In this document: positions 28,225 through 57,029 of the stretch, piece after piece
Position numbering within the stretch: the first letter of the stretch is position 1
How the letters are laid out: each line of letters starts with the position of its first letter
From: Symbiodinium sp. CCMP2592
Taxonomy: Eukaryota; Sar; Dinophyceae; Suessiales; Symbiodiniaceae
Assembly: GCA_905221615.1 (NCBI GenBank)
Contig: CAJNDT010006152.1
Coordinates: forward strand, 313,711-377,710
Direction of reading: 5' to 3'
DNA: 64,000 nt
The notes under the pieces: model-generated
The model's database searches: none
Seen by the model: only the letters and a program-made list of their open reading frames with translations
Told to the model about the DNA's origin: nothing
Translations under genes and position numbers: made by a program

Positions 28225-28528
28225 AAAAGGCTTCGGCAAGACAACTAAGATATCAGCAAAAGGTAAGTAAGATACCGATTTGGGCTTTCATTTGGCCCTT
28301 AACCTATCACAACCAATCCCGAGGCTGACACACTCACACATTTTCTCGCTGCCTGTTGCTTGCACTTCCTGACTTGTAATTTTCTAACACATCGGATGTG
28401 TCTCTGTGATATGCAGGCAGTCTCAGTCTTGCATTCTGTGTAAGAATTATCAGCCCATACAGTGGTTGTCCTGCTATCCTATCAACTGTAGGACAGAGGA
28501 CTGCAAGACTGAGGACTGCAACGAATTA

Positions 28529-28807
28529 TTAGGTCATCAAATCGACCCACTCTGCGTATGCACGAACTCTGCTTTTGAACACGTACCACTGACGCTCCCA
28601 GGTACGTTTCGAAACGCCGCTCACGTAGACGCGTGGTGTAACGGGTGGATCCCCCGGAGGGGTAGACTGCATGTCCTTGTTGAGCAACAAGAGCTTCGCA
28701 CGCTGGTACTCCTCGGATTTCTTCATGCTTGCAACCACCCTGACTCGTTTGAGGACTCTCTCAAAGTCTGTTAGTACTCGCCGGTCCGGAGAGATGTCCC
28801 TGTCCAT
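28529..28807 (-). CDS. Small basic protein in left TIR (92 aa), function unknown
   Basis: The ATG at 28807 opens MDRDISPDRR and the frame ends VDLMT before TAA. The protein is basic, with a helical stretch VLTDFERVLKRVRVV and a C-terminal basic block VSKRTWERQWYVFKSRVR, which suggests nucleic-acid binding. I do not recognise the family. The motif CAGTCCTGCAGTCTTGCAGTGGCA lies just upstream of the ATG. The gene points outward to the element end. The copy in the right repeat (56281-56562) is intact but differs at several residues, although other parts of the repeats are identical. A role at the transposon ends is inferred. Confidence 0.5.
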   Translation of the reverse strand: MDRDISPDRRVLTDFERVLKRVRVVASMKKSEEYQRAKLLLLNKDMQSTPPGDPPVTPRVYVSGVSKRTWERQWYVFKSRVRAYAEWVDLMT

Positions 28808-29159
28808 TGCCACTGCAAGACTGCAGGACTGAGGACGGCTAGTTTGTGCTGTCAGAGGCCAAAAACTGCGACAACACTCAGTGTGAAACAACTTCTGTGC
28901 GACAATGGAGGAAAAAACTACTACTATTGACTACTGTTACTGTTCAGGGTTGGCTGCCCCTTAAGGTAGGCCTCATGCACAGTCTAGCAGTCTTGCTGTT
29001 CCATAAGAAGCTCCAGCTACATGTGTCTGTATTTATAATATACATATATATATATATATCTCTAGGATAATCCTATAATATTACAGGACCAAGCTTAAAC
29101 AAGACCGTTAGGCTGCATAAGAGGCCTTTCGAAGGCTGCCGGGAGCAATCCGACCTTTT

Positions 29160-30350
29160 TGAGTGCCTGGCACGTACAGTCTACCAGTCTTGCAGTCCTT
29201 AGCGTAAGCACCCCTAAGAATGGTTATTAGGTCCCTCAACTTAATATAGAAGGACTGGAAGACTGTTAGACTGTAAATTAAGAGTCTGCCTGCAAAGAAG
29301 CTTGTCAAGGCCATGTACAGTCTACCAGTCCTGCAGTCCTCAGTAAGCACCCCCATTATAGGTATAGGTCCCAAAATTAGACTAGTATGGGTGGACTGCA
29401 CGACTGTTAGACTGTAACTTAGGGATTAAGGGTTTAGGTCTAAGAGTCTCCAAGAGGCTCCCTGCCAAGAGACCTTTTGAGGCCATGTACAGTCTACCAG
29501 TCCTGCAGTCCTCAGTAAGCACCCCTAGTATTAGGTATAGGTCCCAAAATTAGAATAGTATGGGTGGACTGCACGACTGTTAGACTGTAACTTAGGGATT
29601 AAGGGTTTAGAGTCTAAGAGTCTCCAAGAGGCTCCCTGCCAAGAGACCTTTTGAGGCCCTGTGCAGTCTATCAGTCTTGCAGTCCTCAGTAAGCACCCCT
29701 ATTTTATAGATCTTATAGCATAGGCCCCAAAATTAGAATAATATGGGTGGACTGCGAGACTGATAGACTGTAAAGAAGTCTTTAAGAGGCTCCCTGCAAA
29801 GAGACCTTTTGAGGCCCTGTACAGTACAGCAGTCTTGCAGTCCTCAGTAGGCACCCCTATGTTATCGATATAGGTCCCCATAATTAAACTAGTATTGGTG
29901 GACTGCAAGACTGTTGGACTGTAAAACTAAGAGGCTCAGTAGGGCTTCACAAACTCTTCTTCGACACTCACTGAAGCACTTCAAGCCCTGCAAGCTGCTA
30001 CGAAAAAGCCAAAAGCCACTAGTAGTGGCAGCTGAAGACCTCTCAGGCCCATAGTGCAAGGCCCGTAAGGCAAGTCTGCAGTTTTGCAGACTTTTGGGAG
30101 GCTTGCCTCTAGGAAAGCATCCTTCAATGTCCACCCTTGGACGAAAACCGCTGAACACATGTGCCAACTTAGGCACGCAACAGTACCATGGAAGCCTTGT
30201 AAGCTTGTAAGGGTAGCTTGAGGCTCGGTAACTCAGGCCAAAACCGCAGTCTACAGTCTTGCAGTCCTCAGTACAACCCCTATTTTATAGTATGTTATGG
30301 GTCCCCTAGTAGAATAATGTGGTGGACTGCAGGACTGCTAGACTGCTGAA
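29160..30350. repeat. Series of ~100-bp MITE-like units in the left TIR
   Basis: Six or seven units have inverted ends of the type ACAGTCTANCAGTCYTGC/AGTCC and a core with GGTGCTTACTG and ATTTTGGGACCTATA. They are separated by about 70-bp spacers carrying GGCCTCAAAAGGTCTC and CAGGGAGCCTCTT. The whole series repeats at about 170 bp. The unit ends equal the motif that is scattered through the element. Confidence 0.75.
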
Positions 30351-31069
30351 CCTGGAGCTCCGAAGCCACAGCCTTCACACCCGGGAGTCTCATGTAGAGA
30401 CTTTCAAAACCCCGGACAGTCCTCAGTCCTGCAGTTTCCATATAGTACATACAACTACATATACATATATATATATATATATATTATGTACTATTTAAGA
30501 ACATATGGGCCCCTTGTAAACTGCAGGACTGAAGACTGGTTAACTAAGAAGCCCAGCTCACACCAAAGAGCCTCTCACTCCGGCTGCTGTGGCTGCTGGC
30601 CTGTGCGTGGCCGCTGGCGGCCGAGCTGGAGGCCGACCTTGGCGCAGTAAGTTTAGACTAAGGGTTTTAATTTAGGGTGTAGGGTTTTGGGGTTTTAGGC
30701 CAAAGAGCTTCTCAGTGAGAGGTGCTTTAGACTTGAATAGTGCATAGTGGGGTGTCTCGAAAAGGTCGGTGTCTTACAAAGGTGCCGGGGTCTTGAATCC
30801 TATGGTTTGCAAGACGCACACTCAGAACGACAAATGCAGCAGTGCAGATTGTTTTTGCAATCAAGATGAAGCGCAGCTCCGAACAGCTTATTGCTGACTC
30901 GAGTGTCTTGTATCAGCTTGCAGACAAGGCACAAAATGCTTGGCATACAAAGATTGATGAAACACTGAATGAATCTGGACTCTAAACTGAAAAGTTAGTT
31001 TGTGCTATCCTTATGACTCATTACTGGAAACACCAAGCTTGCCTGACTGCAGGACTGCAAGACTGCCAC

Positions 31070-33763
31070 TCACAACTTGGCAATGGAATCCTTTGAAATC
31101 CTGGCCTTGCGTTTCATGACTGCCTGAGGCATCATGCCTTTCAGCTTGTTGGCCTGATCATCGTATTCCAAACAAAACAGCACATCGAATTGTGACAAAG
31201 AGTTCAGGGCCACAAAACTGGACAGTTTCGCATGCGGCACGACTGGTGGGGGGAACTTCATATGCGGGTCCTCTGGGGCCTCCTCGACACTGGGTTTCAA
31301 GCACGCCGGCTCCAATGCAAGGATCTTCCACTCCACGTTGTTGCCATTGACTGTGTTCTCGCAGGAATGCAGGTGGATCGAGGGCTTCGGGAGGCCTGCC
31401 ACTAACAAGGCATTCAAGATATCCTTGATTGCCCCACCCTTGTTCGAAAACTGCTGAACACTGGGTGGCAAATTCTTGCCGGCTTTGGGTCGAAGCAGCA
31501 CCTGTGAATCCTCGGTCAATTTGTAAGCATAAACAGCACCTTCCGAACTGCTGATCAGCTCCGAAGCCTCCCGCCCCGTCTTGAAAAATCCATGGATCTG
31601 GAACTGCGCTCCTTCAAGAATGCAGTCTGTGAGGCCCTTGACATACAAGTCACCACGGGAGTTCACCCAGAACTCATGGGTTGTCAGGCCTGGCACCTGG
31701 CATTTCCCCATATGCTCGAGGTCTGAGGACTGCAAGACTGACGACAAGACTGTCTCGGCAGTGTTGTCCTGCTGCAACCTGGGTCACAGCACATGCACAA
31801 ACACTTTTACACTGTTTGAAGCAAAGGATCAATCAACAAACAATGCCAGCAAGGGACACTCCCACCTCTGTCTCGGAAGCACGCTTAGCACGGATCACCT
31901 CTTGGGGATTGAACTCCTGGTTGTGTTTCTCGAAGAGCTGGCTCCACCCAAGGCCTTTCCAAACCTCACTGTCAGGAAGCAACACCTCTCCACATGACTT
32001 AGCTTTGGTGATGGTTTCCCGAAGCCAGTGCAGCTCGTTGTTTCCAGTGGGCTGGGTGAGCTCAAACAGATCCAACTTCAGGCTTGGGGGACTGCTGTTC
32101 TGCAAGACTGGCCGAGACAGTAGCGAGGGTGGAAGTGCAACAGGACCGTACTCATTCCTGGCAATGGCAGCTTTGACATGCTCAGTGAACACTTCCTCCA
32201 CATTCGAGACAATCTGATCCTTGACCTGTGCATTGCCAGCCCATGCGATCCCAACATAGGCGAACCTGGGGAAAGTGCCATTCTTCACAGCATTCATGTT
32301 GGCAACTGCAAGACTGAGCTCAGCATCGTAGAGCGACTCATCGCGTACCAACACCGTGTGCTTGTTTGTCAGCTTCGTGCCCTTCACAAGGGATGAGATC
32401 ACCTCTGCCAGAAAGCCTGCCCCAGAGTACCACTGCTTGCCTCAATGCCAAAAAAACATTGACACAATCATGTGAAACTTGATCAATTATTATTAAGACT
32501 GACACACTGTACCAACCCCACAGTAGAAATTCTGCCCTGGCACGCTCAAGGTCTTGATCACCGTTTGTTTTGCCACCCGTCACAAACGACATGTCCTTCG
32601 CGAAGTTTTTCATGGACTGTCTCGGGAAACAGCTCACCAGTCCTGGAATGGCTTTCCTTTTCAGCAAGACTGAGGACTGAAACACATTCGTGTCTGCAGC
32701 TGCTGAAACGACAACCCATAGCTCAACTCCAAGTGTTCGCTCATCACTGTACATCGACTCGTGATCAAACAGTGCAGTGGCCTTCATCAGCTTGATCTCA
32801 GCAACACTTTCAATCTCGGACTTCCAGACTGCTTGGTGGGCAGCCACCTTGTCCTCGCGCTCAGCTTTGGTAAGCTTTCCCAGTCCGAACGCAACCTGGT
32901 TGGGTGGAATGATCAGGTAGACTGCAAGACTGCAGGACTGCTGGAGCTCCGAAGCCATGTGACCCACCATAGCCGTCACACATGATGATGCAGCAGCACC
33001 CAACATGGGAATGTTGATCACAGTGATGACTGGAATCTGCTTGACATCCTGCATCAAACGACTGGCAAGTGTCCTGTGTGTCGCATGTTCGAAAGCCTGC
33101 CCCACTCCCAATGTCTTGCTGGCATTCACCTGATAGTAGATCGAGTGCTCACCCCATGCACTTTCCACCCCCTCTGCAATGGACTTCTGGTACTCGGCTT
33201 CGGCTGCCACTGTCTGCACCATGTGTCGTTGGAAAGCCACACGATGGCCTCGCATCTCATCCTGCTCTCTCTTGAGGGACCTTGCAAGGTTTGTCAGACA
33301 GCGCACTGCCTCCTGAGCAGCTTCATCCTCCACCAGGTCAGAGGACTGCAAGACTGCAAGACTGTTGCTGGCCTCTTCTTGCTGCATCCGGAGCCCCAAA
33401 TCGGTCAAGCTGAAGTCTGGCCTCATGGCTGCCACTTCCGGGAAGAGCTTCTGGTCCAAGTGTCCCAGTCGCCAATGGGACATCATCTTGTGGTACTCGT
33501 CCGGACTCATATCCTTCATCATCTGGTCCTTAAAGTGCACCATGACACAGGCCATCAGGTAGACTTGGGACTCTCTGCCAGAATCACGGAACCCTGCACA
33601 GATGGATGACTGATGAATTGGGGGTGGCTGCTGCCTGTCGACATACTCCTGGATCTTGCCATTCCACTTAGCCTGCAGTCTCTGCAACATCTCCTCGATC
33701 TTTTCCCAAGAGAACTTCACAATCTCATGCCAGACCTTGCTCTGAGTTCATAGCTAAATGTGT

Positions 33764-33837
<74 letters not shown>

Positions 33838-35411
33838 ATAGTAGTAGTACTAGTAATGGTAGTGGAAGTCGGTTGTAGTCGTTCTAGTAGTAGTGGCTCC
33901 GAAATACAAAGGTTAGAATGGGACTGAAACCAAAATCAAAATGGATATCTCAACACTGCAAATGACTCCAGCCCTGAAACAGGACAATACTTGAATGCTT
34001 ATCCAGGAACTGGGTTACCGGTAGGCGAGACCTTCAGGTTGCCACTCAGCTGCTTGGTCGGGTTAAAGAACCTGGGCTGTTGTTTGGATTGGTTTCTGGG
34101 ACTTTTAACACTTAAACTCAGAGACTCAAGTGCACACACCAAACAAACAAATATAAATTCCACATGGACCAGGAAACGGCTGTGCAATGCACGACAAGGG
34201 AACAGCAGTGTGATGCGGCGCTTCTGTACCCCACACCAACTTGAGCATCCGACGAACATGTGCTGGTGCCAAATCATAAACTTGAATGGCAGCAATCTCA
34301 TCGGGGTTTATGCGGGACTTCGAAACAGTGCTCTTGTTGTGTCGGTTGATCGCCTCTGTCATCATGTCCTTCCGAAGTTTGCGGGATCCTGCTGCCACCT
34401 TCGCTGCCACAATCTTGTCGAACCTTAAGGTCCACAAGGAACAACAGCATTGTCACAAAGAGCAACACACACACACACACACACACACACACTTACCACA
34501 AGAGCAGTCATTCACACTTCTGCATATATCTGGTGACTTAGACCCAGACAGGAAGTGCATGTTAATGATCGAGGGCCTGCTTCTTGCACTTGCATCCGTC
34601 TTAATGCGCAAACTCTCCATGGACTGCTGCTCGACTGAGGACTGAGGACTGCAGGTGCCGAAGATACCTGCAGTCCACATCTCATTCAAGCAGGTTGAAA
34701 CAGGAACTCAAACTGGAAATTAAATGTTTTCTCACATGTGTCCATCATGTCCCAGTTGCAGAGACAGCTCATCAATCGGCCCGCCACATCCTTCTTGACA
34801 TGGTCCAGGACTGTTGGACTGTTCAACCAATCAAGCTTCATCGCAGCATAGGCGAGAAGATGGCATGCCATGGTAACAGTCGTCCCAATGCTGACTGCAA
34901 CACTGAAGGCCTGGATCAATGACCCCGGTGCAGGGCTAGACGATTTCCACGCAGTTGGCCAATCAAACAGAATCTCCAGCGGGAACTTGTGTGTCTCACA
35001 CCCCATCCCTGTCATGAACTTCTGTATGCAGTCCCGCACTCCATGGAGTTGTGGGGCCCCCTTGACATGCGAGGCTTCATGACCGCCAAGCTGCCACAGT
35101 CGCAAAGGGAACCGCTTCAACATCTTGCTACTGGCCTCCTGGAGGTCTGCAGGACTGGGGACTGAGGACTGGAAGGAGGTCACCCCAGCTCCAGCCACTG
35201 CTTCACAGCTAGCCAAGAGCTGCTCCAGATTTGCCTGGTGAGCCGACCTCTCCCCATCGGAGCCTAGCTTCTGACCCAACCATTCACAAACATCTGTGAA
35301 TTGTGGCTGACCATCTGCACTCTTCACATCCAGCTCTGCTTTGAGGACAGCCATAGCCTCACCATACAAGGTGTAAAGTTGTTGCTGATTCGCAACAGGT
35401 TCGGGGTCCAT
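31070..35411 (-). CDS. Large multi-exon protein of unknown function (about 1,000 aa)
   Basis: Minus-strand exons, boundaries approximate: 35411-34735 (MDPEPVANQQQ..), 34684-34497, 34440-34192 (DKIVAAKVAAGSRKLRKD), 33742-32440 (WHEIVKFSWEKIEEMLQR), 32410-31805 and 31780-31070, ending ISKDSIAKL. The clearest donor is GTAAGT at 34497, and the acceptor ctcag|AGCAAGG at 33742 also looks good. The long exon has a hydrophobic segment VITVINIPMLGAAASS and helical charged stretches. The motif-derived peptides NSLAVLQSSDL and QQSCSLAVYL sit in frame. The ATG at 35411 is about 15 bp from an AGTC motif block. No family was recognised. One gene is assumed because all exons are collinear and spaced by short introns; it could be two. 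Confidence 0.45.
33755..33862. repeat. (TAG)n microsatellite in an intron
   Basis: About 100 bp of TAG/CTA trinucleotide just upstream (minus-strand sense) of the exon beginning SKVWHEIVK. Confidence 0.95.
34469..34494. repeat. (CA)n microsatellite next to a splice donor
   Basis: CA run starting immediately inside the intron that begins GTAAGTGTGTG on the minus strand. Confidence 0.9.
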
Positions 35412-35636
35412 GGCTAAAAAGACAGCAGGACTGCAGGACTGCAGGTGCTTGTCCTCCAAAATCTTCATTAGCCAAGAGCCACACACACACACAACATGAG
35501 AGAGGAGCTTGCATCGACAAGGAAGCATAACACAGTCACTGCAGTGACTTCATACATAACACTCACAAACGCATTTTTTGTCGGGCTTCACTGACTATCG
35601 ATCCTTGCTTCCACAACATGGGCACGGGCATCTGGA

Positions 35637-36176
35637 TTACTTCTGTGTCCACCTCAATCCCCGGAGCCAGTTGAGGCCTCGGCTGAAACTGATATTACAC
35701 CAGTCCGGTTCAACTGCTGAGTGGAGTCGACATTCTTTAACTATTTGAAATTCTTCAAGTGCAAGGGACAGTTGAAACCACACAGTATGCAAAGACTCCA
35801 TTACAGCCTCATCTTCACAATAGATCGGTCCTCTGGCATGCACTGTGCACACTCTCTGAAGATCACTGACAGCTGATTCCTGAACTTGGCTACACAAGAC
35901 CAATGTGTTCAAAAAGCAGAGAGCAGTCACTGCTACAATTCCTCATCATTCAGATCAAGGACAGTATCTAGCCACATAATGCAAGGATTCAGGCCAGTGC
36001 TTCTTCCGAACCCCCTTAAAATTGTGACAGTAGCATCTGGATGTTCCACCCAGCCACATCAGACTGAGGACTGAGGAATGCAACAAGGTTGTCGACACGA
36101 AATGCCCCAGAATCAAAACTCTTCCCCAGATGTTCCAACAGCCACTTAGGACTGAGGACTGAGGACTGCAAAACAC
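35637..36176 (-). CDS. Possible exon(s) of an unrecognised gene
   Basis: Two open minus-strand segments have mixed, gene-like composition. One contains GTSRCYCHNFKGVRKKHW and, in another frame, ends DLNDEEL. The other contains ESAVSDLQRVCTVHARGP and runs to LRWTQK. Both contain or adjoin AGTC motifs (CSPQSSVLS). No start or splice sites were fixed and no family was recognised. They could belong to the gene ending at 36179 or to one of their own. Confidence 0.25.
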
Positions 36177-36178
36177 AT

Positions 36179-37310
36179 TCAGCCCTCAACCTGCTTCTTG
36201 AAGGCTTGGATGATCTGGACTGTGGTCATGTCCGCATCTGCAATACTGTAGAACAGGCGCTCATTCTTCTCACTCCAATGGCACTGGGGAACGTACCTGT
36301 AGAACATCTCTCTGCGCAAATCCCACAGCTTGGCTGCATCCTGGTTCCTGTTCCTGTGTCGACCAGCAAAAGTCACCTTGTCTGGCCACTCCACGTTCAC
36401 ATTCTTGTGGAGCACAATCTCCAGTGCATCTCGGTCTGACTTGGTCGGGCTGATCTCGGACTGAGGACTGAGGACTGCTGGCTTGGCCGGACTGCCCTGG
36501 GAATCCTTGGGGTCCTGCTTGTCATCCTCCTCACCCTTCTGGCTCTCCATGGGGTCCTGCTTGTCATCCTCCTCACCCTTCTGGCTCTCCATGGGGTCCT
36601 GCTTGTCATCCTGGTTGCCATCCTTCTTGTCATCGTCCTGGTCCTTCATGGGCTCGAGGGCTGCAGTGTCTGCCTCCTTCTCATGCATCTCCTGGTCGAT
36701 GTCCTGCAAACAGTGAACCAACAACACTCATAGGCTGGGGAGACTATTAAGTGCAATAAAAGTTCCGTCCTTGCTTGCTTTGGAAACCGAAGCAGCAGGC
36801 CGTTTGAGACTGGCAGGCTTCTTCATGACACCCGACTTTGCCTTTGCCTTGCCTTTGGGCCAGCCCTTTTTCTTGGGAAGTGGCTGCTGCTGGACTGCGG
36901 ACTCTGGGGCAGGGGTGAGAGGGTCAGTCTTGGCTTGGGTCTTGGCTTGGGCCTTGGCCTTGGCATCTGCTTTCTTCTGTGCTTTTGTCTGCACCAACTG
37001 GATCGGACTGCCTCCATCTGCTGTGCCTGCAGTAACATCCTCCACAGAAGCACTGGGAACTAGACCTGCCTTGTCTGCTGCGAGCTTCTCTCTACTTGTG
37101 ACTTGTGATTGTGCCGAACAAGACCCGGGGCTTCACAGGCGACACCTTCTCACCAGTCAGTGGATCAGCCACCTTGTGCGGTAGCGCAGCTGGGGTGACA
37201 TTCTCTTCCATCTGAATGTCTCCCTGTCCATCCTCGGGCCAGTCAATCGCATCACCTTCAGCATCGTCTTCTAGCATCGGGATAGAAGCAGCCATGAATC
37301 CTCCGAACAT
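36179..37310 (-). CDS. Charged two-part protein with acidic repeats, frame broken by a 7-bp duplication
   Basis: Exons on the minus strand: from an ATG near 37295 or earlier (AASIPMLEDDAEGD..) to about 36780, then 36704-36179. The first part carries a Lys/Ala-rich segment (KAQKKADAKAKAQAKTQ) and KKPASLKRPA. The second has two copies of QDPMESQKGEEDDK and ends with a less biased region (EWPDKVTFAGRHRNRNQD .. AFKKQVEG). The intron probably uses a GC donor (AAA|GCAAGC) and ttgcag|GACATC. Within the first exon, CACAAGT is tandemly duplicated at 37094-37107 and shifts the frame to an early stop. The alternating basic and acidic blocks suggest a chromatin or DNA-associated role, but that is inference. 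Confidence 0.45.
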
Positions 37311-37535
37311 TGTGGTGAGACAGCTCAGACAAAGGACTGCAAGACTGGACCACAGCTTGACCTTAACTGAATCTCAGCCAGAATGCAATCATCATAATTC
37401 ATATCAATGAGGCAGACAAGTTCAAGGCACTTTGCATGCAGGCACAGCACACAGACACAGGCAACAGTGCATTGCTCACTCCAGGGTCCAGTCCTTTTCC
37501 ACGCACAAACAAATACTATGATGCCGAACACAAAA

Positions 37536-38762
37536 TCAGCAGCCTGCCCATGGATCATCCTCTGAAAGTCCACCGGGCAAAGACTCTGCTACACAGGAAG
37601 ATCTTGCACTGGGCTTCTTCATGGCTTTCATGGCACACTTCCGCGCTTTTGCTTTGGATTTGGACTTGGCTTTGGGCTTGGCTTTCATCGCAGTCCGGGC
37701 TGCCGGCTTCTTCGAAGGAGCAGAAGTTCCAGACTCTCCAGCCTCTCCCCAGGGATCATCTTCGGGTTCTTCTTCATTGAAAAGGGCTCCGATCTGATCA
37801 GGTGTCAAATCTTCCCACCGCCGAGGAACATCAGCAGCAGGACTGAGGACTGCAGGACTGAGGACTGCAGAACTGACACCAGATGTACTGCTTGGCAAAG
37901 GATGCTTTCTCTCCAGCAGACTGGGTTTTGCATCCGGAGCAAAACGAATCAACCAAGCAAGTACAATTGATTCACCCAGTGATGCAGGGTAAAGACCGCT
38001 TGCCTTCAGGTCTGCATTTCCAGTCTTCTTGGTTGCTCCACCCTTCTCCTTTTTCACATCCATCAATGGCAGGTGCTTCTCTTTGCAGGTGCATGCACTG
38101 TGCACAGCTTTTTTGAACCAGCAAGGACTGAAGACTGCATGACTGGGGTGCAAGCACAGGAACTTGTACCTTTTGCCATATGTAGGTCTCTCGGTCACAA
38201 AGGCACAGCGGTCAACAAGGAAGAACAGAGGACTGAGGACTGCATCCAGCGCTAAGATGTGTGCCTTCAGGTATGAGAACAGTGTCGAGCCCACTGGGTT
38301 CTCCAAACAAACATATACACCTCGTGCTGCTGCCAAGACAAACAGGAAGAACGACACCTCAGCCATGAAGTTCCCATGCCTGACAGTGGGATTGCCAGTG
38401 TCTCCTGCAAAGTTTTTCTTGGTGCGCTTGGTCTTACTTGAGCATGCCCAAGAAAAGCTGGAACAATCGGGTGCAATACACATCAGACCAGCTTCCTTCA
38501 ACCGCATGACCATCCGAATTGCTTGATGAAAACCAGTCTCTGACAAGACGTCCCCTTGCCCTGGATTCATGTAGTCGAAACTCTCTGCACTCAGCCCACG
38601 TGTTTCTGCCGCATTGACCAGTGTCTTGGAAAGACTGAAGACTTCCAAAACATGAAGATCACGAGGTCCCTGGCAAAACAGTTCAGACTGGAGGATCCCA
38701 ATGACTGTCAATCCGAAGATCTCCAGCCGACATGTCCGTGCAACTCCGGAGCCACTCTGCAT
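37536..38762 (-). CDS. Cytosine-C5 methyltransferase-like protein (408 aa)
   Basis: A single exon from ATG at 38762, about 25 bp after an AGTC motif block. The order resembles C5 DNA methyltransferases: a motif I-like LEVFSLSKTL at residues 39-48, a motif IV-like APDCSSFS with the expected catalytic Cys at about 100, and a motif VI-like LENPVGS at 153-159 (ENP instead of the usual ENV). A Lys/Ala-rich tail follows (MKAKPKAKSKSKAKARK) and then EDDPWAG. Motif I lacks the usual FxGxGG, and no clear target-recognition domain or QxRxR motif was seen. It may be a diverged DNA or RNA methyltransferase or a non-catalytic relative. Motif-derived peptides (AVLSPAVLSPA) are in frame. A role in marking element DNA is speculative. 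Confidence 0.45.
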   Translation of the reverse strand: MQSGSGVARTCRLEIFGLTVIGILQSELFCQGPRDLHVLEVFSLSKTLVNAAETRGLSAESFDYMNPGQGDVLSETGFHQAIRMVMRLKEAGLMCIAPDCSSFSWACSSKTKRTKKNFAGDTGNPTVRHGNFMAEVSFFLFVLAAARGVYVCLENPVGSTLFSYLKAHILALDAVLSPLFFLVDRCAFVTERPTYGKRYKFLCLHPSHAVFSPCWFKKAVHSACTCKEKHLPLMDVKKEKGGATKKTGNADLKASGLYPASLGESIVLAWLIRFAPDAKPSLLERKHPLPSSTSGVSSAVLSPAVLSPAADVPRRWEDLTPDQIGALFNEEEPEDDPWGEAGESGTSAPSKKPAARTAMKAKPKAKSKSKAKARKCAMKAMKKPSARSSCVAESLPGGLSEDDPWAGC

Positions 38763-45982: not shown

Positions 45983-46029
45983 ACATGTACAGTCCCCAGT
46001 CTTCAGTCTTGCAGTCCCTCGGTGCTGCA

Positions 46030-47310: not shown

Positions 47311-48004
47311 CACACGGCCCTTTGCCCCCACATGCCTCGAAGGTTTTGTGTCTCCGTGGCAGCAGCGCGGGCGATGTTCGGAACTCCGGCCTGTACCGGG
47401 TTCAGGGTGGGGGGGTTCAGGGTGGGGGCCTTAGGGATGTCGAGCTCTTTAGGTTTAGGGTGCTTAGGGTTTTAGAGCATCTATCGGTAGTTCATTGTGC
47501 TTTAAGCACAAGGAAGACCCTATTTACCCTAAGCACCATAAGATCCCCGAGATGCTAGAACAATGAAACCCCAAAAAAAAACACACGGACTACTAAGTGC
47601 TCAGTAAACCCTAGTCACCCGAAGCCTACTCCAATCCTACCATGTAAAGCTTAGGGTTTAGGGAGTATCGATCTGGTGTGTTTATCAGGGTTTGTTGAGG
47701 GGAGGTGGTTGTTTGTCAGTTTTAATTTAAAGTTGGATTGCTGTTGTTTTGAGGTTGCAGGATTCTGCAGGGTTCTGCACAAAGAATGGTTACAGTTATT
47801 CTTGTGTTTTGTGCATTGAAGATTTGAAGGACTAGGAGTGTTTGCTTATTATTAAGTGTTTTCATCCACCATACAGAATGGGAACAAGCTTAGCTTGTGT
47901 TGTGAATGACAATGATGAGATGTTGTGTTTATAAATGTTTGGTTTTAGTTACCAACCACACAACACAAATGGCTCGATGGGCTCGAAGTCGTCAAGGCTG
48001 CAGA

Positions 48005-48294
48005 ATAAGTTGCAGCGTAGTGGTCGCAGCTCTCTTGATGAAGCTCTGCTGCGGGTATGTCAGTGAAGATCCCATCGAGCTTGGACTGGAGGTCCAGCTC
48101 TTGCATTGTTGGGGATCCGTCTCCTCAGACTCGTCTTCGTCTACACTGATAGGAGGCTCGGGCTCGTGAACCATCGGCTCTTCGGGAACTTCGGGCCGCA
48201 TATGGGCGCAGAAGTATTCAGTGTAGGGAAGCCCACGGTTAGTGACGCACACAGTGCTATTCGCTTCCTGCAGCACCACTCGACTCGGTGCCAA
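48005..48294 (-). CDS. Possible exon, acidic segment
   Basis: An open minus-strand segment reads VCVTNRGLPYTEYFCAHM, then an acidic run EPPISVDEDESEETD. Composition looks coding, but there is no ATG and no known domain. A motif block (GACTGCAGGACTGGGGACTGG) lies upstream at 48350. It may be an exon of the Cys-rich gene further right or a captured fragment. Confidence 0.25.
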
Positions 48295-48299
48295 TCGAT

Positions 48300-51060
48300 G
48301 AAAAAAAAAACCCTAAGTTTAAACCCCTATGAAGCTTATAAGATCTTAAGACTGCAGGACTGGGGACTGGGAAATGGGCTTACTTTAGGTTCGGTGTGAT
48401 CGCCACCCAATGACTCTGTCAATTAGTAAGTTAGGACCACTCAGTGTCCATCAATCCAAAGGTATACTAAAAGTAACAGCCCAATGCTCCAGAACCCACA
48501 AGCTCTACATCTTGGTCAGAATACTCCGAAATCTTCAAATGCACTAAGAATTATGCTTAAATTAAGGGTTTTAGGGTTTAATGTCTCCCTAATAATTTGC
48601 CTCAAAGAAGGGGTTTTAAGGATCTGTCTTGGCAAAGAAATGAAGCTCACTGTCAAAGGGCCTTAAGGGGTTTTAGGGAAGGGAGCCCTGGGTGGTGAAG
48701 ACTCAGACTGGGGCTTAGAATCACTTCATGAAATTTATTCAGGGTTTTAGAGTCAGTCCAAATTAGAACCTCCAAAACAAAACCCCTAAATCAAAAGCCA
48801 TCCAGACCTCAACCTAAGAACCCCAATGCACCAATAAGCTTGTGCCTAAAGCCTAATAATTAAGCCTCAGTAAACAACACGAAACCCTAAACCAAAATCA
48901 CATTAAACTATACCCATCAAAAGCACCCAAAACTCTACTAATCTGAAGAACCCCAGCCAACCGAAAGCTCCTAATTAAATGCTAACAACCTTAATCTTAA
49001 CCCCTAAGGACTGCACGGACCTGGCCCGGCGCATTGTGGTGGTGGCAGGTGCCCTGCATGCAGGGCTATTTAGGGCTTTAGATTAATAATGGTTGGAGAT
49101 TTGGGTGTCAAGGGCTTTAGGGCATTAGGGTTTACAGTTTTGATTGATTTTGGTGTCAAGGGCTTTAGGGCATTTAGGGTTTCGGGTTTTAAGGGCTTTA
49201 GGGCTTTCAGGATTTTGGTGTTTGGACTGTTTGGGGTTAGGTGTTGACAGAGGTTGCTTGGATGTGGTTGGTTTACAGAGCTTCAGGGTTAGTGTGTTAG
49301 GACCTGTGGGACCTGGAGTGTTAGGGCTTCGGGTATCATACTTTGGGACTTTGGGCCTTCACATAGTTTAGGGCTGGGGGTGGTACTGGGGGGGTGGGGG
49401 TTGGGGGGGTAGGGAATTTAGGGTCTGTAGGGATTGTAATTATTGGGGTTTGGGGCCCTTCGGGTTTGGAATGGCTTGGGGCTCGGAGCTTACTACCCTA
49501 TCCTAATTTAAATCCAGTAGTAATGAAATAAACCCTGCCAAAACCCCTGTAAACCCCGAAGCCCTATTACTAAGCAGGCTCTTTTTGTGCAGCTCCTTTG
49601 CAGGGCATCGGCCAAAATGGGAGGCAGGTTGAATTGCATCGAATGTTCCTTCACCTTCATTACTATGTATCAAGATGTGACAATAATTTATTGTTTCCAT
49701 ATTAAAGACATCACTTTAAAATACCATCACATTCGACCTTGTGTAGCCAGGGGTCTTTGCTAACCTCATAGCTCATGGTGTTGCGAGCCATAGGGTCGCA
49801 AACTCACTTATCCGATGTGCATATCACTCAGTCGTCCTTCCCCATTGCACAGTGCACCAGTTACTACTGCAAGACTGCAGGACTGTCTGTGAATATTGAC
49901 ATACAGAATCTAATTCCAGCATTCTGCTTGCAAATGGGGACTGAAGACTGAGGACTGTCTAGTACTGTGCGTACTTGACAAATCTCAACAGCTCCTCACG
50001 GATCGTCGTGTTGTCCAACTTAGATCGCACTCACAGAGCTTCAACTCCAAACATCATTTAAAATTTGTCAAGCCAAGGTGCTTTGATCAAAGTCAAAGAT
50101 GGCCTGCGCTGGGAGTGCCGGCCTGGTTCGTGGGTCCTGAGCAAGGTGGGTCTGGGTTGTAACAAAAGAATCACTTAAATTAATTATGTGACTTCGGAAT
50201 TAGTTAGAAGCGAGGTGCATCTCGAGAATGAAGATCTTGCGCTTTCGAAACTCTGGGGTGGCAACACCGATGCGGTTGCAAGTCCATTTCCCAATTTGCA
50301 TGTAGGATTTCTGGATTCCAGGAATGGACTGTATGCACCAATTCGGCTCCAGGACTTCGCGCTCGGCATACTCTGGGTTGAACTGCGACTTAGTGGCTTC
50401 CAGAATCAGGCTTTATTGGGGGTTTAGAAATCAGGGTTTATTAGGGTTTGAGGGAACTGTCTAACAATAACAAACCGACCATTCATTCTCAAGCAACATT
50501 GTCCGCGGGCTGCCAGACATAGTTGTCCCCGATATGAACGTAGCGGCCGTTCTGCTGGCTCCTCGATTGCAATGTCAGGTTAACTAGGTAACTAGTCATC
50601 ATTCAACTTCAATGTCATTGCATCCTAAAGCTTCCACGGCACCGGACGATCTTCCAAAAGCTGACTGTGCGAATGCCATTGTCGGTATCCGGAGGGGTGT
50701 ACCTTAGTGTAGGTTTAGGGGTTTAGGGTAGCTTAGGGTTTAGGTAGCTTAAACCCGAAATCCGTACTCATAGCCCTAAACCCCAAACCACAGCCGAAAG
50801 ACATTGCCCAGATGAAGGTTCCATTAATCGGAAGCCACCATGACCAAAGATCATCAACATCGAAGAAGTCGTCCACTCCTGAGATTCAGTCATGGTTACT
50901 AGAAGATCAGATGTAGTACTACTATTACCACCACAATCAAAACCACCACCCCCTAAACCCTGAACCCTTAAAGCATATTGAACCCTAAAGCCACGAGTTA
51001 AGGATCCCTTTAAGGCTAGAGCTGGTTTTGGGTTTTAGGGTTTTGGGTTATTGTGATGGA
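48300..51060. other. Host-like stretch with TTTAGGG tracts
   Basis: TTTAGGG-type words at 48560, 49060-49450, 50400-50450 and 50700-50780. AGTC motif blocks occur only at about 48350, 49870 and 49935. An open segment at 50188-50427 has no recognised homology. Confidence 0.45.
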
Positions 51061-51074
51061 AGACATGAGTGTTC

Positions 51075-51137
51075 TGTCCTAGTAGTCATAGTAGTAGCAG
51101 TAGCAGTACAAGTAGTAGCAGTAGTAGTTGTAGTGGC

Positions 51138-51182
<45 letters not shown>

Positions 51183-51192
51183 CCTAGTAGTC

Positions 51193-51223
<31 letters not shown>

Positions 51224-51358
51224 ATAGTAGTAGTAGTAGTAGTAGATAGTAGTACCAGTTGGAGTGTGAGTACTAGTACTGCTACCAGTACTAGTAGCTA
51301 GTACAAGTGGTCGTAGTAGTGTTGTCTCAGCTAGCAATAGTAGTACGGGCCGGAGTAA

Positions 51359-51389
<31 letters not shown>

Positions 51390-51401
51390 TGTTGTAGTGG
51401 C

Positions 51402-51458
<57 letters not shown>

Positions 51459-51568
51459 CCTAGTAGTCGTAGTAGTAGTAGTGGTGATGGTTGAAGTAGT
51501 AGTTGTTGTACTAGTATGTAGTATCAGCAGCAGTAGTTGTAGTAGTAGTAGTAGAAGTAGTTGTAATA

Positions 51569-51625
<57 letters not shown>

Positions 51626-51660
51626 CAGTAGTAGTAATAGTAGGGAAGTAGCAGTAGCTT
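51075..51660. repeat. (TAG)n / (AGT)n microsatellite
   Basis: Almost 600 bp of TAG trinucleotide with short interruptions and an internal duplication of the block around GGCAGTAGTAGTAG..CCTAGTAGTCG. It abuts the 3' end of the gene at 51660-53616. Confidence 0.95.
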
Positions 51661-53616
51661 TAGTGGTAGTAGCAGGGAGTAGATGTTGTTGATGACGAGT
51701 CGCGGAAGTCATCCACCTGGGCAGTCAGGACTGCGAACTCCGATGTGCTGTATTCACCACGAGTGTAGTCAGGAACGTAGTCAAACGGACATCTCCAGCG
51801 CGCCCAGCCATATCCAAAATACTGGTCCAAGAACTGCGAGACTGTCTCCTGAAGCAGAGTCCACTTGAACAATGTTGCATGAAGCCCTCAGTCCTACAGT
51901 CTTGCAGTCATGTATCTCTTCTCGACGGTGGTGCCAGACTGTCTTCGACAGACGTAGGGAAACAGCGGGCCAAGATGAGAGCATCGCACATCAGCATGAC
52001 GATTTCGGAAACCTGAGGGTACATGTGAAAACTGAAACAATCATTGTGACAAGTGCTTGTCACTTGATTCAGTTAAGCAGCGTGTTTGGTCAAGTTGTAG
52101 CTCAACCCCGTAGGGTAGAAGTACTCCTGCTGGCACTGGGAGAAGCCCTCGAAGCACTTCTGGCAGTAGTGGTACAGCAAGGCCGGGGTGCAGGGGACCT
52201 CATTCCTGCCGACTGCCTCAGGATTATCCAGCACTGATGGTGTGTAACATCATTGAAATGCCAACATGACCGATGCAGCAAAGCTTCCTCCAACCAGGCT
52301 GCCATTTTGTCCATCTGGGCTGGTACCCGAAGGAACTCCAGCATGCCTCAGAGAAACTCTTGTCACACCGAACATGCTATTGACATTCTGCACACACCCT
52401 AACTGCCAAGTAACTCTCTGCTTTCATGTTCTTGGGCAGTGAGGAGGGACTGTAGGACTGCAGGACTGTCGCTGCAATGTCCAACCCACCACGGCCTTTG
52501 TTTTCAAGTAATCAGCAATGGCTACAACAATCAACAAATGCATTTGCTGTGCAATGTTTTTGTGCCAGCAAGAATCATCTGAGAGCAGATTCTGTCACAG
52601 TGGAACCAACCTCCACACTGTAAGTCGCATGACGTGGAACGGCTCGGCCCAGCCAGGAAAACTGCATTGTGGGCTCTGAACGGAACACCCCCGGAATGTC
52701 CAAGTGTGTCCTCATCCAAAAGCGAGACAAGGACCGGTGCACCACAACTACATGTCGTCAAACTCAAGAGTACACATAAACACAGTCCTCAAATGGTACT
52801 GCAACAACTCCCAGTCGATCAGCGCATCATTCTCCACAGCAGGACCGGGGACTGAGGACTCCCCTCTCTCTGCTGCAAACCCCTCGTGCAATGCCTGCTC
52901 TGGGACAGCAGGACTGAGGACTGAAACCTCATCGGGAGCTGTCGGGGTAGCTGGCTCATACCCATACCCACTGCTGCCTGCAGCATTCGACCTGCGGAGT
53001 TGCGAGGGTTCTCCACGTGTCTTCATCTCGACCTGGAGTTTGGCCTTGAATGAGTGAGCACTCATCTCCAGTTGTAGCTCGGAGGCATCCCTGGTCAACA
53101 GTGTGGTCGCCTGAACAAAGCATGTGTAGCTCCATGTTCGGACTTTCATGTCATGCAATGTGTGCATCTGAAAGATTGTAGGGCCATGACTATGGTGCCA
53201 CTGGCAATCCCGCTTTCCCCAGTCATGTTCTGCTTGTGCAGAATGAACAGCAACATCTGATGATCACGGAGGTTGAGATATCCGGCGCAATTCCATGCCT
53301 CAAACTCTGTGGGTATGGACTGCATGCAACCAAACTACAGTGACACTCAGCTCACTTGACAGCAATCACAACGTATTTCAGAACCCCACCGGTGTAGGCC
53401 CATTGACAGTTTCCGTGCGTGCTTGCACAGGACCGTTGGGACCGTTGCCATGGACCGTCCTAAGTATAGTCAGGAATCAAGACTGCTGTAAGTTAACCTT
53501 TGCATGCATCACTCCAAGGACCAGCCAAGTTACACAAAGAACGGACCCTTCTCGGACACACCAATCACTGTCTTGATTTTGTAGTCGACAGTCAAATTGG
53601 CAATGGAGTCTGCCAT
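51660..53616 (-). CDS. Cys-rich protein of unknown function, several exons and frame breaks
   Basis: The ATG at 53616 gives MADSIANLTVDYKIKTVI. Later minus-strand segments are 53325-53167 (IPTEFEAWNCAGYLNLRD), 53167-52748 (VRTWSYTCFVQATTLL .. VLSPAVPEQALHEG), 52767-52550 (CSCGAPVLVSLLDEDTLG .. CDLQCGGWFHCDRIC), 52340-52085 (VPCTPALLYHYCQKCFEG) and 51872-51660 (FGYGWARWRCPFDYVPDY). The C-x-x-C and GWFHC arrangement looks zinc-binding, possibly PHD-like. Adjacent segments meet in different frames at about 53167, 52757 and 52225, where no normal intron fits. AGTC motifs are in frame (VLSPAVPEQ, FAVLTAQ). Either the copy is decaying or the assembly has indels. Confidence 0.4.
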
Positions 53617-53769
53617 TGCACACAATGAAAACGAGTCTCCTTGATGTTCTGGAGCCCGAGTCTGCAGCTACTGGAGGTTGTCATGTAGCAGTCAGCAAAC
53701 AGCAGCAGTGGCAGGAGATTGCAAGTACAGTAGTGAGTGGCAAGTGGTACTACATGCTGTTGGTGGAAT

Positions 53770-53888
53770 TGTTGTAGCAGCAGCAGTAGCAGTAGCAGTA
53801 GCAGTAGCAGTAGCAGTAGCAGTAGCAGTATCAGCAGTAGTAGTAGTAGTAGTAGTAGTAGTCGTCGTAGTAGTAGTTAGTAGTAGTC

Positions 53889-53984
<96 letters not shown>

Positions 53985-54160
53985 CTAGTAGTACTAGTAG
54001 TACTAGTAGTACTAGTAGTACTAGTAGTACTAGTAGTACTAGTAGTAAGAGTAGAAGTAAGAGTAGTAGTAAGAGTACTAGGAGTAGTAGTCATAGCAGT
54101 AGCAGTAGCAGTAAGGAGTAGCAGTAGCAGCAAGGAGTAGCAGCAGCAGTAGCAGTAGCC

Positions 54161-54202
<42 letters not shown>

Positions 54203-54258
54203 TCAGTAGTAGTAGTAGTAGTAGTAGCAGAAGTAGAAGTAGTAGTAGTAGCAGCCTA
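53770..54258. repeat. CAG/TAG/ACT trinucleotide microsatellite
   Basis: CAGTAG, TAG, CAG and TAGTAC blocks of about 490 bp directly abut the inner edge of the right terminal repeat. Poly-Ser and poly-Val frames are artefacts. Confidence 0.95.
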
Positions 54259-54594
54259 TTCTACCCGTATCGCAAACCATAGGATTCAAGACCCCGGCGC
54301 CTTTGTAAGACACCGACCTTTTCGAGACACCCCACTATGCACTATTCAAATCTAAAGCACTTCTCACTGAGAAGCTCTTTGGCCTAAAACCCCAAAACCC
54401 TACACCCTAAATTAAAACCCTTAGTCTAAACTTACTGCGCCAAGGTCGGCCTCCAGCTCGGCCGCCAGCGGCCACGCACAGGCCAGCAGCCACAGCAGCC
54501 GGAGTGAGAGGCTCTTTGGTGTGAGCTGGGCTTCTTAGTTAAGCAGTCTTCAGTCCTGCAGTTTACAAGGGGCCCATATGTTCTTAAATAGTAC

Positions 54595-54638
<44 letters not shown>

Positions 54639-54744
54639 GTTGTATGTACTATATGGAAACTGCAGGACTGAGGACTGTCCGGGGTTTTGAAAGTCTCTAC
54701 ATGAGACTCCCGGGTGTGAAGGCTGTGGCTTCGGAGCTCCAGGT

Positions 54745-55915
54745 TCAGCAGTCTAGCAGTCCTGCAGTCCACCACATTATTCTACTAGGGGACCCATAAC
54801 ATACTATAAAATAGGGGTTGTACTGAGGACTGCAAGACTGTAGACTGCGGTTTTGGCCTGAGTTACCGAGCCTCAAGCTACCCTTACAAGCTTACAAGGC
54901 TTCCATGGTACTGTTGCGTGCCTAAGTTGGCACATGTGTTCAGCGGTTTTCGTCCAAGGGTGGACATTGAAGGATGCTTTCCTAGAGGCAAGCCTCCCAA
55001 AAGTCTGCAAAACTGCAGACTTGCCTTACGGGCCTTGCACTATGGGCCTGAGAGGTCTTCAGCTGCCACTACTAGTGGCTTTTGGCTTTTTCGTAGCAGC
55101 TTGCAGGGCTTGAAGTGCTTCAGTGAGTGTCGAAGAAGAGTTTGTGAAGCCCTACTGAGCCTCTTAGTTTTACAGTCCAACAGTCTTGCAGTCCACCAAT
55201 ACTAGTTTAATTATGGGGACCTATATCGATAACATAGGGGTGCCTACTGAGGACTGCAAGACTGCTGTACTGTACAGGGCCTCAAAAGGTCTCTTTGCAG
55301 GGAGCCTCTTAAAGACTTCTTTACAGTCTATCAGTCTCGCAGTCCACCCTTATTCTAATTTTGGGGCCTAAGCTATAAGATCAATAAAATAGGGGTGCTT
55401 ACTGAGGACTGCAAGACTGATAGACTGCACAGGGCCTCAAAAGGTCTCTTGGCAGGGAGCCTCTTGGAGACTCTTAGACTCTAAACCCTTAACCCCTAAG
55501 TTACAGTCTAACAGTCGTGCAGTCCACCCATACTATTCTAATTTTGGGACCTATACCTCTACTAGGGGTGCTTACTGAGGACTGCAGGACTGGTAGACTG
55601 TACATGGCCTCAAAAGGTCTCTTGGCAGGGAGCCTCTTGGAGACTCTTAGACCTAAACCCTTAATCCCTAAGTTACAGTCTAACAGTCGTGCAGTCCACC
55701 CATACTAGTCTAATTTTGGGACCTATACCTATAATGGGGGTGCTTACTGAGGACTGCAGGACTGGTAGACTGTACATGGCCTTGACAAGCTTCTTTGCAG
55801 GCAGACTCTTAATTTACAGTCTAACAGTCTTCCAGTCCTTCTATATTAAGTTGAAGGACCTAATAACCATTCTTAGGGGTGCTTACTAAGGACTGCAAGA
55901 CTGGTAGACTGTACG
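54745..55915. repeat. Series of ~100-bp MITE-like units in the right TIR
   Basis: Units at about 54750, 55167, 55322, 55503, 55675 and 55815 each run from ACAGTCTANCAGTCNTGCAG to CTGCANGACTGNTAGACTG. They are mirror copies of the series in the left repeat. Confidence 0.75.
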
Positions 55916-56280
55916 TGCCAGGCACTCAAAAAGGTCGGATTGCTCCCGGCAGCCTTCGAAAGGCCTCTTATGCAGCCTAACGGTCTTGTTTAAGCTTAGT
56001 CCTGTAATATTATAGGATTATCCTAGATATATATATATATATATGTATATTATATATACAGACACATGTAGCTGGGGCTTCTTATGGAACAGCAAGACTG
56101 CTAGACTGTGCATGAGGCCTACCTTAAGGGGCAGCCAACCCTGAACAGTAACAGTAGTCAATAGTAGTAGTTTTTTCCTCCATTGTCGCACAGAAGTTGT
56201 TTCACACTGAGTGTTGTCGCAGTTTTTGGCCTCTGACAGCACAAACTAGCCGTCCTCAGTCCTGCAGTCTTGCAGTGGCA

Positions 56281-56562
56281 ATGGACAGGGACATCTCTCC
56301 GGACCGGCGAGTACTAACAGAGTTTGAGAGAGTCCTCAAACGAGTCAGGGTGGTTGCAAGCTTCAAGCAGAAATCCGAGGAGTACCAGCGTGCGAAGCTC
56401 TTGTTGCTCAACAAGGACATGCAGTCTACCCCTCCGGGGGATCCACCCGTTACACCACGCGTCTACAAGAGCGGCGTTTCAAAACGCACCTGGGAGCGAC
56501 AGTGGTACAGGTTCAAAACCAGAGTTCGTGCATACGCAGAGTGGGTCGATTTGATGACCTAA
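56281..56562 (+). CDS. Small basic protein in right TIR (93 aa), function unknown
   Basis: ATG at 56281 directly follows CAGTCCTGCAGTCTTGCAGTGGCA. The frame ends VDLMT before TAA, and the gene points outward. It is the mirror copy of 28529-28807 and differs at D/E in LT(D/E)FE, at ASMKK versus ASFKQK, at (V/K) in VY-SG, and at (V/R) and (S/T) in QWY-FK-R. These changes lie in or near basic, presumably DNA-contacting stretches. Both copies are open, so both could be expressed. Confidence 0.5.
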   Translation: MDRDISPDRRVLTEFERVLKRVRVVASFKQKSEEYQRAKLLLLNKDMQSTPPGDPPVTPRVYKSGVSKRTWERQWYRFKTRVRAYAEWVDLMT

Positions 56563-57029
56563 TTCGTTGCAGTCCTCAGTCTTGCAGTCCTCTGTCCTAC
56601 AGTTGATAGGATAGCAGGACAACCACTGTATGGGCTGATAATTCTTACACAGACTGCAAGACTGAGACTGCCTGCATATCACAGAGACACATCCGATGTG
56701 TTAGAAAATTACAAGTCAGGAAGTGCAAGCAACAGGCAGCGAGAAAATGTGTGTGTGTGTGTGTCAGCCTCGGGATTGGTTGTGATAGGTTAAGGGCCAA
56801 ATGAAAGCCCAAATCGGTATCTTACTTACCTTTTGCTGATATCTTAGTTGTCTTGCCGAAGCCTTTTGCCTTTTTCTGCGGATTTCGGGTTTACAGTGAA
56901 GAACGGTTTGGGGACAGAGCGCCCTCAGTGTGATGGAAGGTGCCTGAGCCTGCCATTGCGACGGGCGAGATTTTCTGAACGTCACTATAGGGTTTAGGGT
57001 TTAGGGACCCTAAACCCTAAACGGCCCCC

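Follow-up and report, generated by a model that had tools for sequence, protein, structure and literature searches.

A multicopy giant DNA transposon of Symbiodinium with an interior in both orientations and a putative serine invertase

What is the block of about 28.6 kb that lies between two 2.6-kb inverted repeats in the genome of a dinoflagellate, and are these repeats its natural ends? The block was studied in a window (the whole stretch of DNA analysed) of 64,000 nt from Symbiodinium sp. CCMP2592 (GCA_905221615.1, contig CAJNDT010006152.1:313,711-377,710, forward strand), and all positions below refer to this window. An earlier note, made from the letters alone, had described a giant transposon-like element with 2.6-kb inverted ends, its own set of genes, a dispersed motif and a central palindrome.

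A giant nuclear DNA transposon in many copies

The nuclear genome of the coral-symbiont alga Symbiodinium contains the element, a giant DNA transposon of about 28.6 kb, in many copies. Its boundaries in the window are 28227 and 56865, with the termini AAGG...CCTT, the two outermost bases on each side of the originally proposed 28225..56867 being chance matches that fall outside the transposon. Within the left arm (28227..30801, + strand), the outer terminal inverted repeat (TIR), AAGGCTTCGGCAAGACAACTAAGATATC, is followed directly inward by a similar second motif, AAGGTAAGTAAGATACC. The search of the host assembly for other copies, as the earlier note had proposed, revealed at least 74 matching element ends against 0 for a reversed-pattern control; these genome hit counts are lower bounds, and the copy search scored 40 of 63 candidates. 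An exact 4-bp target site duplication (TSD) was found in 12 of the 13 elements with both ends read, including one (C779) that has GA in place of AA at its left end.

The two features that characterize DDE DNA transposons, namely an RNase-H-fold catalytic domain and the occurrence of TIR and TSD in many copies, were both found. The DDE transposase anticipated by the earlier note is encoded at 38966..41468 (- strand), with exons at approximately 41468-40713, 40653-39676 and 39586-38966 as deduced from alignment to relatives, and matches DUF7869 (PF25273; E 2.4e-30), a domain with a DDE/RNase-H fold. In structure comparisons, Mos1 ranked first with Foldseek (TM 0.30) and integrases with VIA, from which a shared fold is taken and no family. 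This DDE protein would perform the insertion. Compared with viral contigs, it gave four pattern matches and no relatives, and no paper on DUF7869 was found in the open-access literature. Listings of that literature yielded no described family fitting the element, in line with the earlier assessment. Neither Rfam families nor tRNA genes were detected in the window.

Unlike ends and the inverted arms of the window copy

The inverted repeats are present where they had been reported: the arms 28225-30816 and 54266-56867 share eight collinear ungapped blocks, 95-100% complementary and far above chance, and the whole-arm alignment shows 98.8% identity over 2,585 aligned positions, with 31 substitutions and 8 gap runs. 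In three near-identical copies (C1890, C2569 and C979) and in a diverged relative (C5012), the two ends are unlike, hereafter designated A and B, and each of these elements has a 4-bp TSD. All four elements of this A/B kind with both ends read thus combine one A and one B end. The sequence common to A and B ends is limited to the terminal ~60 bp, and both arms are 2.50-2.65 kb long when measured from the recombinase gene described below. A arms belong to different lineages among copies. Contigs C354, C4446, C4260 and C75 have no recombinase match, and their ends were left unplaced by distance; for C880, the end position rests on a 16-base extrapolation and the end type on a guess.

Both arms of the window copy are of type A, the left one (28227..30801, + strand) belonging to lineage A1 and the right one (54281..56865, - strand) to lineage A2, with 31 substitutions between them. 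Of the 13 elements, the window copy alone lacks a target duplication (TTAA/TTGC), and it shares its flanks with C5362 and C380. With A arms of two lineages, no TSD and the flanks of these two contigs, the 2.6-kb repeats are therefore probably an assembly artefact and the 2.6-kb inverted ends probably not the natural ends of the element, the right arm having probably been brought in from another insertion. Of the giant transposon with long inverted ends first described, the transposon stands but its ends probably do not; the caveat then raised, that the repeats may stem from assembly, probably holds for the repeats and does not extend to the element.

Since copies hardly differ in their interiors, the assembler most likely created the A/A arrangement by fusing two insertions whose interiors point in opposite directions. 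Other accounts were rejected. An element that natively ends in A on both sides conflicts with the unlike A/B ends, the arm lineages and the missing TSD. A simple mirror artefact of the assembler is incompatible with two matched lineages, and the left arm is not a mirror copy of the right because of the 31 differences. A real 3.8-kb deletion in C5362 was dismissed, as a run of 100 N lies at that place; N runs (100, 100 and 5,000) were read as scaffold gaps because they are round numbers, although withheld sequence is likewise displayed as N.

It is decidedly unlikely, yet compatible with the inversion of the interior discussed below, that the window copy is a genuine A/A element in which ectopic recombination joined F1-A-interior-A-F2. 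Such an element would agree with the arm differences, which exclude a mirrored copy, and with a window contig that reads through the whole element. However, C5362 and C380 also carry the two outer halves, flanked as in the window, the window contig stops 7.1 kb past the element, and subreads were filtered at a length of at least 5 kb, so that a 23.5-kb repeat was probably left unspanned.

Orientation of the interior and a candidate invertase

The interior (30804..54278, ~23.5 kb) is found in both orientations between the A and B arms of other copies. Based on distance from the recombinase gene, A-left or B-right ends were placed on six contigs (C299, the left part of the window copy, C1890, C2569, C4918 and C1930), and B-left or A-right ends on seven (C535, C785, C979, C91, C423, C1325 and C380); many of these ends lie on contigs breaking inside the element, where a single insertion may have contributed two ends, and these contigs are not to be equated with independent insertions. 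Both orientations at one insertion site were not seen among the assembled copies.

All nine junctions for which sequence was obtained switch within the 9 bp ATGGTTTGC, which lie inside a 26-bp imperfect palindrome (dyad) with a central AT. The crossover site A|L (30790..30815, + strand) consists of GTCTTGAATCCT-AT-GGTTTGCAAGAC with 9 of 13 dyad pairs, and A|R (54267..54292, - strand), inverted relative to A|L, of GTCTTGAATCCT-AT-GGTTTGCGATAC with 7 of 13. Within the window, sequences with at least 19 of 26 matches to the crossover site are confined to these two inner arm edges, in inverted orientation and 23.5 kb apart. Four junction types are predicted, and sequence was obtained for three of them; for the fourth, B|L, the expected site is GTCTCGAAAACC-AT-GGTTTGCAAGAC. 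The B half-site was read in C5362 and carries its name by inference, because 5,000 N part it from any B terminus. Compared with phage Mu, the C5362 site has 17 of 26 matches, with gix itself as the best place; A|L has 14 of 26 at gix and 15 at other places, which does not single out gix, and A|R reaches 15 in a tie with another place. The arm next to each crossover site has weak candidates for direct-repeat recombinase-like half-sites (span 30754..30801, + strand): a scan located two, at 30754 and 30790, and a still weaker one was seen by eye at 30771. The scan is noisy, with 51 matches in the window where a single shuffled sequence gave 20, and similar 12-mers are frequent.

A serine recombinase of 270 aa is encoded inside the interior at 45170..45982 (+ strand). 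Its catalytic domain (PF00239, E 2.3e-13, residues 47-199 of 279) precedes a C-terminal part that is HTH-like by eye, and its reading frame is open and ~100% identical at no fewer than 15 places in the genome. YARTSS is invariant in the recombinase alignment. DRLSR is the canonical active-site motif of serine recombinases, and its position is occupied by VRALAR(N), invariant in eight of eight aligned recombinases; catalytic ability is not certain because VRALARN stands where DRLSR is canonical. The structure model of the protein is poor (pLDDT 56.9), and a search of solved structures with the recombinase gave 0 matches at E 0.01. This gene had been overlooked in the earlier note. Contig C2678 has the recombinase and no end in the end lists.

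Within the window, the dispersed motif is indeed proper to the element: all 68 occurrences of GACTGCAGGACTG with up to one mismatch (28499..56652; 43 on the + and 25 on the - strand, sites in the A arm being counted twice, as the arm is present twice) lie inside it and none in the other 35.4 kb, against 0.06 expected from base composition. The form GTCTTGCAGTCC has 20 exact copies in the window and agrees with the crossover half-site GTCTTGCAAACC at 10 of 12 positions. Further binding sites of the recombinase, by which the protein would mark its own element, may be among these 68 motifs. The palindrome near the centre of the element was also recovered (42363..42657; arms 42363-42504 and 42516-42657 of 142 bp, 98% identical, with an 11-bp loop). 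The idea that it is the seam of a palindrome spanning the whole element was rejected, since the 25 longest of 233 pairs contain no inverted similarity beyond the arms.

In bacteria and phages, serine recombinases are textbook agents of DNA inversion. We consider it probable that the interior is inverted in a Gin/Hin-type reaction by the element's own serine recombinase, with the DDE protein carrying out insertion and the window A/A copy being a chimera. The encoded enzyme would bind the two 26-bp sites, cut at the central AT and invert the interior, as Gin does on the G segment of Mu, and inversion would be recent or ongoing. Whether a Gin/Hin-class inversion system is here at work in a living alga, for the first time in a nuclear transposon of a eukaryote, flipping 23.5 kb that include the invertase and transposase genes between unlike ends, with some of the 68 dispersed motifs perhaps serving as further binding sites, is for us evenly balanced; no report of serine-recombinase inversion inside a eukaryotic nuclear transposon was found in listings of the open-access literature. 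If true, dinoflagellates would possess a DNA switch of natural origin, open to simple plasmid assays, contigs broken or misjoined at these elements would be accounted for, and DUF7869 would gain a concrete role, ends and a target rule (4 bp). The element also poses a clear question, namely what reason an element of 28 kb has for turning its interior around with respect to its ends.

Alternative readings and known systems

The recombinase might instead be a resolvase, the element transposing replicatively and resolving cointegrates at direct sites according to Tn3 logic, with inversion as a side reaction. The arm-side half-sites, if they are accessory sites, recall res sites, and C979 and C2569 have two recombinase genes per copy, as leftover cointegrates or duplications would give. 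Yet the half-site scan is noisy, the two crossover sites of the window are inverted and far apart, the two orientations are about equally frequent (6 vs. 7 contigs), and the TSD is of 4 bp rather than the 5 bp of Tn3, so that we regard a resolvase as unlikely. Very improbable is an exchange of arms between copies by homologous recombination, gene conversion or template switching, without a site-specific enzyme: it would fit the different lineages of A arms, but not the switching of every junction read in the same 9 bp of the dyad site, nor the pairing of one A with one B end in all four elements with both ends read. An integrated Polinton-like virus, with the long inverted repeats as viral ends, is extremely improbable. 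The size of the element falls within the 14-40 kb given in PMC12220804, and long terminal inverted repeats occur in the window copy as in these viruses. However, such repeats are probably not native here, and viral core genes (capsid, ATPase, polymerase) were absent from the 15 Pfam-scanned of 22 element ORFs of at least 150 aa (unspliced, the other 7 overlapping).

Inversion by the element's own recombinase, the preferred reading, has its closest parallels in prokaryotic systems. The transposase of phage Mu is of the DDE type, and both Mu and the Symbiodinium element are transposing DNA with a DDE transposase, a serine invertase (putative in the alga) and inverted dyad sites, the likeness extending to the match of the C5362 site at gix. 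Unlike Mu, the Symbiodinium element is nuclear and eukaryotic, with a 4-bp TSD and a transposase of DUF7869, and nearly its whole length (23.5 kb) would invert, carrying the genes for transposase and recombinase along. Members of the Tn3 family combine a Tn3-type DDE transposase with a serine resolvase, short terminal repeats and a 5-bp TSD. A DDE transposase and a serine recombinase in one element and short terminal repeats are common to both, whereas two distant inverted sites, the 4-bp TSD and the DUF7869 transposase place the present element outside that family. Hin of Salmonella is a serine recombinase that performs inversion at 26-bp hix sites (PMC3798978, PMC2427008), all of which would apply here. 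The Hin system, which uses a Fis enhancer, differs in that it inverts a ~1-kb promoter segment outside any transposon. IS607 also has a serine recombinase in a mobile element, to which the Symbiodinium protein has a weak NCBIfam match (23.4 bits vs. a cutoff of 110), but its TnpA is described in PMC6188088 as having the DNA-binding domain first and its element as devoid of TIR and TSD. The Symbiodinium recombinase has its catalytic domain first, and TIR and TSD are present, which sets it apart from IS607.

Six further ORFs are on the - strand. One of 408 aa (37536..38762) is conserved, with 8 relatives among the 8,000 best candidates scored; the earlier note had called it methyltransferase-like, a resemblance seen by eye only that found no support in Pfam or NCBIfam. 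ORFs of 460 aa (32338..33720) and 287 aa (34686..35549, stop to stop) have no family match, and those of 237 aa (31070..31783), 195 aa (41807..42394) and 171 aa (52748..53263), all read stop to stop, no Pfam match. Searches by tblastn with 12 window proteins gave no matches in genome stretches L043, L047, L048 and L056, nor in L046, which is flanking sequence outside the element. A 60-aa piece of the 237-aa ORF, 83% identical, adjoins another end on C5355, and the 171-aa ORF is kept in C354 (82%) and C5362 (100%).

Members and ends of the transposon family

The element (28227..56865, ~28.6 kb) consists of an interior of ~23.5 kb between two arms. Its interior genes include a DUF7869 protein with the DDE transposase fold (38966..41468, minus strand), an open serine recombinase (45170..45982, plus strand), and a 408-aa ORF (37536..38762, minus strand) that has a relative in Symbiodinium sp. 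CCMP2592 (98% identity across 52% of the ORF). The assembly searched spans 1.098 Gb in 5,383 contigs. The Symbiodinium tridacnidorum CCMP2592 genome is described as a hybrid MaSuRCA assembly from a monoclonal culture, with PacBio subreads of at least 5 kb kept (PMC8045281).

The earlier note proposed searching for other copies with the outer repeat sequence, and such copies were indeed recovered. Searching with the outermost 501 bp of the left arm gave matches at no fewer than 42 places in the host genome, including at least 13 nearly full-length matches at 96-100% identity and at least some two dozen covering the terminal ~60 bp only. A terminal 26-bp pattern occurred at 74 genomic sites, 37 per strand, and its reversed control at none. 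These sites comprised end type A (that of the window), type B (GGGCTCGGCGG...), 24 exact sites of a type with GGAGTC, and the pair GGAATA/GGGGTA. Among the 13 elements with both ends known, 12 carried an exact 4-bp duplication adjoining the ends (including C779, whose left end reads GA instead of AA), compared with 14 of 156 control cross-pairings. The window copy was the sole exception (TTAA versus TTGC). The element is thus a member of a true transposon family, in which the DDE protein would perform the insertion.

Several related ends were also observed. The GGAATA/GGGGTA ends (GGAATAGGCAAG/GGGGTAGGCAAA) delimit a related element of ~12.6 kb, known here from ends and 4-bp duplications in seven copies (C94, C779, C1035, C2335, C3447, C5150, and C2223). 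The third end type, GGAGTCGGCAAGACAACTAGGATATC, had 24 exact genomic sites, and no partner end with the same terminal pattern was found. A 6.6-kb element, L043 (C5342:43855-50432), has ends of like type and a 4-bp duplication; tblastn with the 12 window proteins gave no match in it, and it is likely non-autonomous.

Interior orientation and the switch site

An A and a B end, alike over ~60 terminal bp, were each present in C1890, C2569, C979, and the diverged C5012. The recombinase gene sits off-centre, with 16.9 kb to one end and 10.9 kb to the other, and so reveals the orientation of the interior; 16 of 23 end-gene pairings gave an arm of 2.50-2.65 kb, the other seven involving runs of N (C5362 and the right side of C1890) or the two-recombinase copies C979 and C2569 (five pairings). 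By this distance, A lay on the transposase side in three cases (C299, window, C1890) and on the other side in five (C423, window, C979, C1325, C380), B on the transposase side in four (C535, C785, C979, C91) and on the other in three (C4918, C2569, C1930), with one untyped end (C880); these rows exceed the independent insertions, since the window shares its flanks with C5362 (left) and C380 (right), and several contigs end inside the element. The interior nonetheless sits in both orientations relative to the A and B types of end.

Nine junctions between an arm and an interior edge (L or R) were read: A|L in the window, C5362, C75, and C299, which their flanks assign to two insertions; A|R in the window, C423, C1325, and C354; and non-A|R in C5362. 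All nine contained ATGGTTTGC, with the arms diverging on one side and the interior edges on the other. This sequence lies within a 26-bp imperfect palindrome with a central AT, pairing at 9 (A|L), 7 (A|R), or 11 (C5362 form) of 13 dyad positions. Only two places in the window matched the site at 19 or more of 26 positions, namely the inner arm edges, in mutually inverted orientation. The C5362 site reads GTCTCGAAAACC-AT-GGTTTGCGATAC, its arm half being named B though 5,000 N cover the terminus of that arm. When both strands of a 4.2-kb phage Mu stretch were searched, the best match of the C5362 site was gix, the Gin invertase site, at 17/26, centred on the annotated G-segment boundary (shuffle p 4e-5). 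The A|L site scored 14/26 at gix but 15 at other places in this stretch, and the A|R site at gix tied with another place at 15. Extra half-site-like 12-mers occur on the arm side, though 12-mers of this kind are common, with 51 counted across the window and 20 in a single shuffle.

Phage Mu brings together three things that are also known separately, namely DNA inversion, DDE transposons, and serine recombinases. No nuclear transposon combining the three was found in the open-access literature listings searched.

Origin of the window copy and of the inversion

The 2.6-kb inverted ends claimed by the earlier note are present in the window sequence (28225-30816 / 54266-56867) and align in eight collinear blocks, each 95-100% identical (31 substitutions and 8 gap runs over 2,585 aligned positions), but their pairing as A/A is probably not native. 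The left arm belongs to lineage A1, two substitutions from C5362, and the right arm to A2, 5-8 substitutions from C423, C1325, C75, and C299. The left side of the window matched 3.5 kb of C5362 (A end plus ~1.5 kb of flank) at 99.4%. Its right side matched 3.0 kb of C380, likewise including ~1.5 kb of flank, at 99.9%. A was placed on the transposase side in C5362 (by junction) and on the other side in C380 (by distance). Because these halves, joined through the near-identical interior, reproduce two A ends lacking a duplication, the window copy is likely an assembly chimera; we regard a genuine recombinant as improbable.

As to the inversion itself, the encoded recombinase would invert the interior at the central AT, and we hold with fair confidence that this enzyme is responsible. 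A2 arms joined to L (C75, C299) and to R (C423, C1325) are only 1-5 substitutions apart, so the flips are young, and inversion may be ongoing. Alternatively, the recombinase could act as a resolvase with inversion as a side reaction, which seems rather unlikely. As for the role of the flip, the arm could alter the 3' parts or expression of interior genes, since the transposase-side genes are directed at their own arm and the recombinase the opposite way; another possibility is that flipping is a side effect when transposition intermediates are resolved.

The C979 (44.4 kb) and C2569 (33.5 kb) copies carry two recombinase genes each, ~15.8 and 4.4 kb apart, one of those in C2569 being partial. 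Either duplication inside the element or a remnant of a replicative event could explain the second gene.

Repeats within and around the element

The dispersed motif reported earlier, GACTGCAGGACTG, proved specific to the element within the window: all 68 sites with at most one mismatch fall inside it, against 0.06 window sites expected from base composition. RGACTG units in tandem (28499-56652, spacing 7-8 bp) are likewise confined to the element within the window and also occur within coding frames (QSCSPQS). GTCTTGCAGTCC, with 20 exact copies in the element, resembles the recombinase half-site GTCTTGCAAACC. Close to the element centre, a palindrome (42363-42657, 142-bp arms, 11-bp loop) adjoins the minus-strand gene block on its 5' side and is possibly a two-way promoter or origin.

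Outside the element, an AT-rich satellite (26572-28227, ATTTAAATA units, higher period 316 bp) adjoins its left end, and the same flank is found in C5362. Tandem arrays at 23303-23971, 25027-26056, and 22843-23123 have periods of 80, 84, and 73 bp; the 80-bp unit contains an inverted repeat, and a 135-bp inverted repeat is present in addition. A 108-nt inverted repeat (3051-3158 / 61125-61232, 96%) flanking the element on both sides is probably a dispersed short repeat. Finally, a 315-aa ORF (62582-63529, plus strand) matches the ubiquitin family at its N terminus (PF00240, E 9.5e-9).
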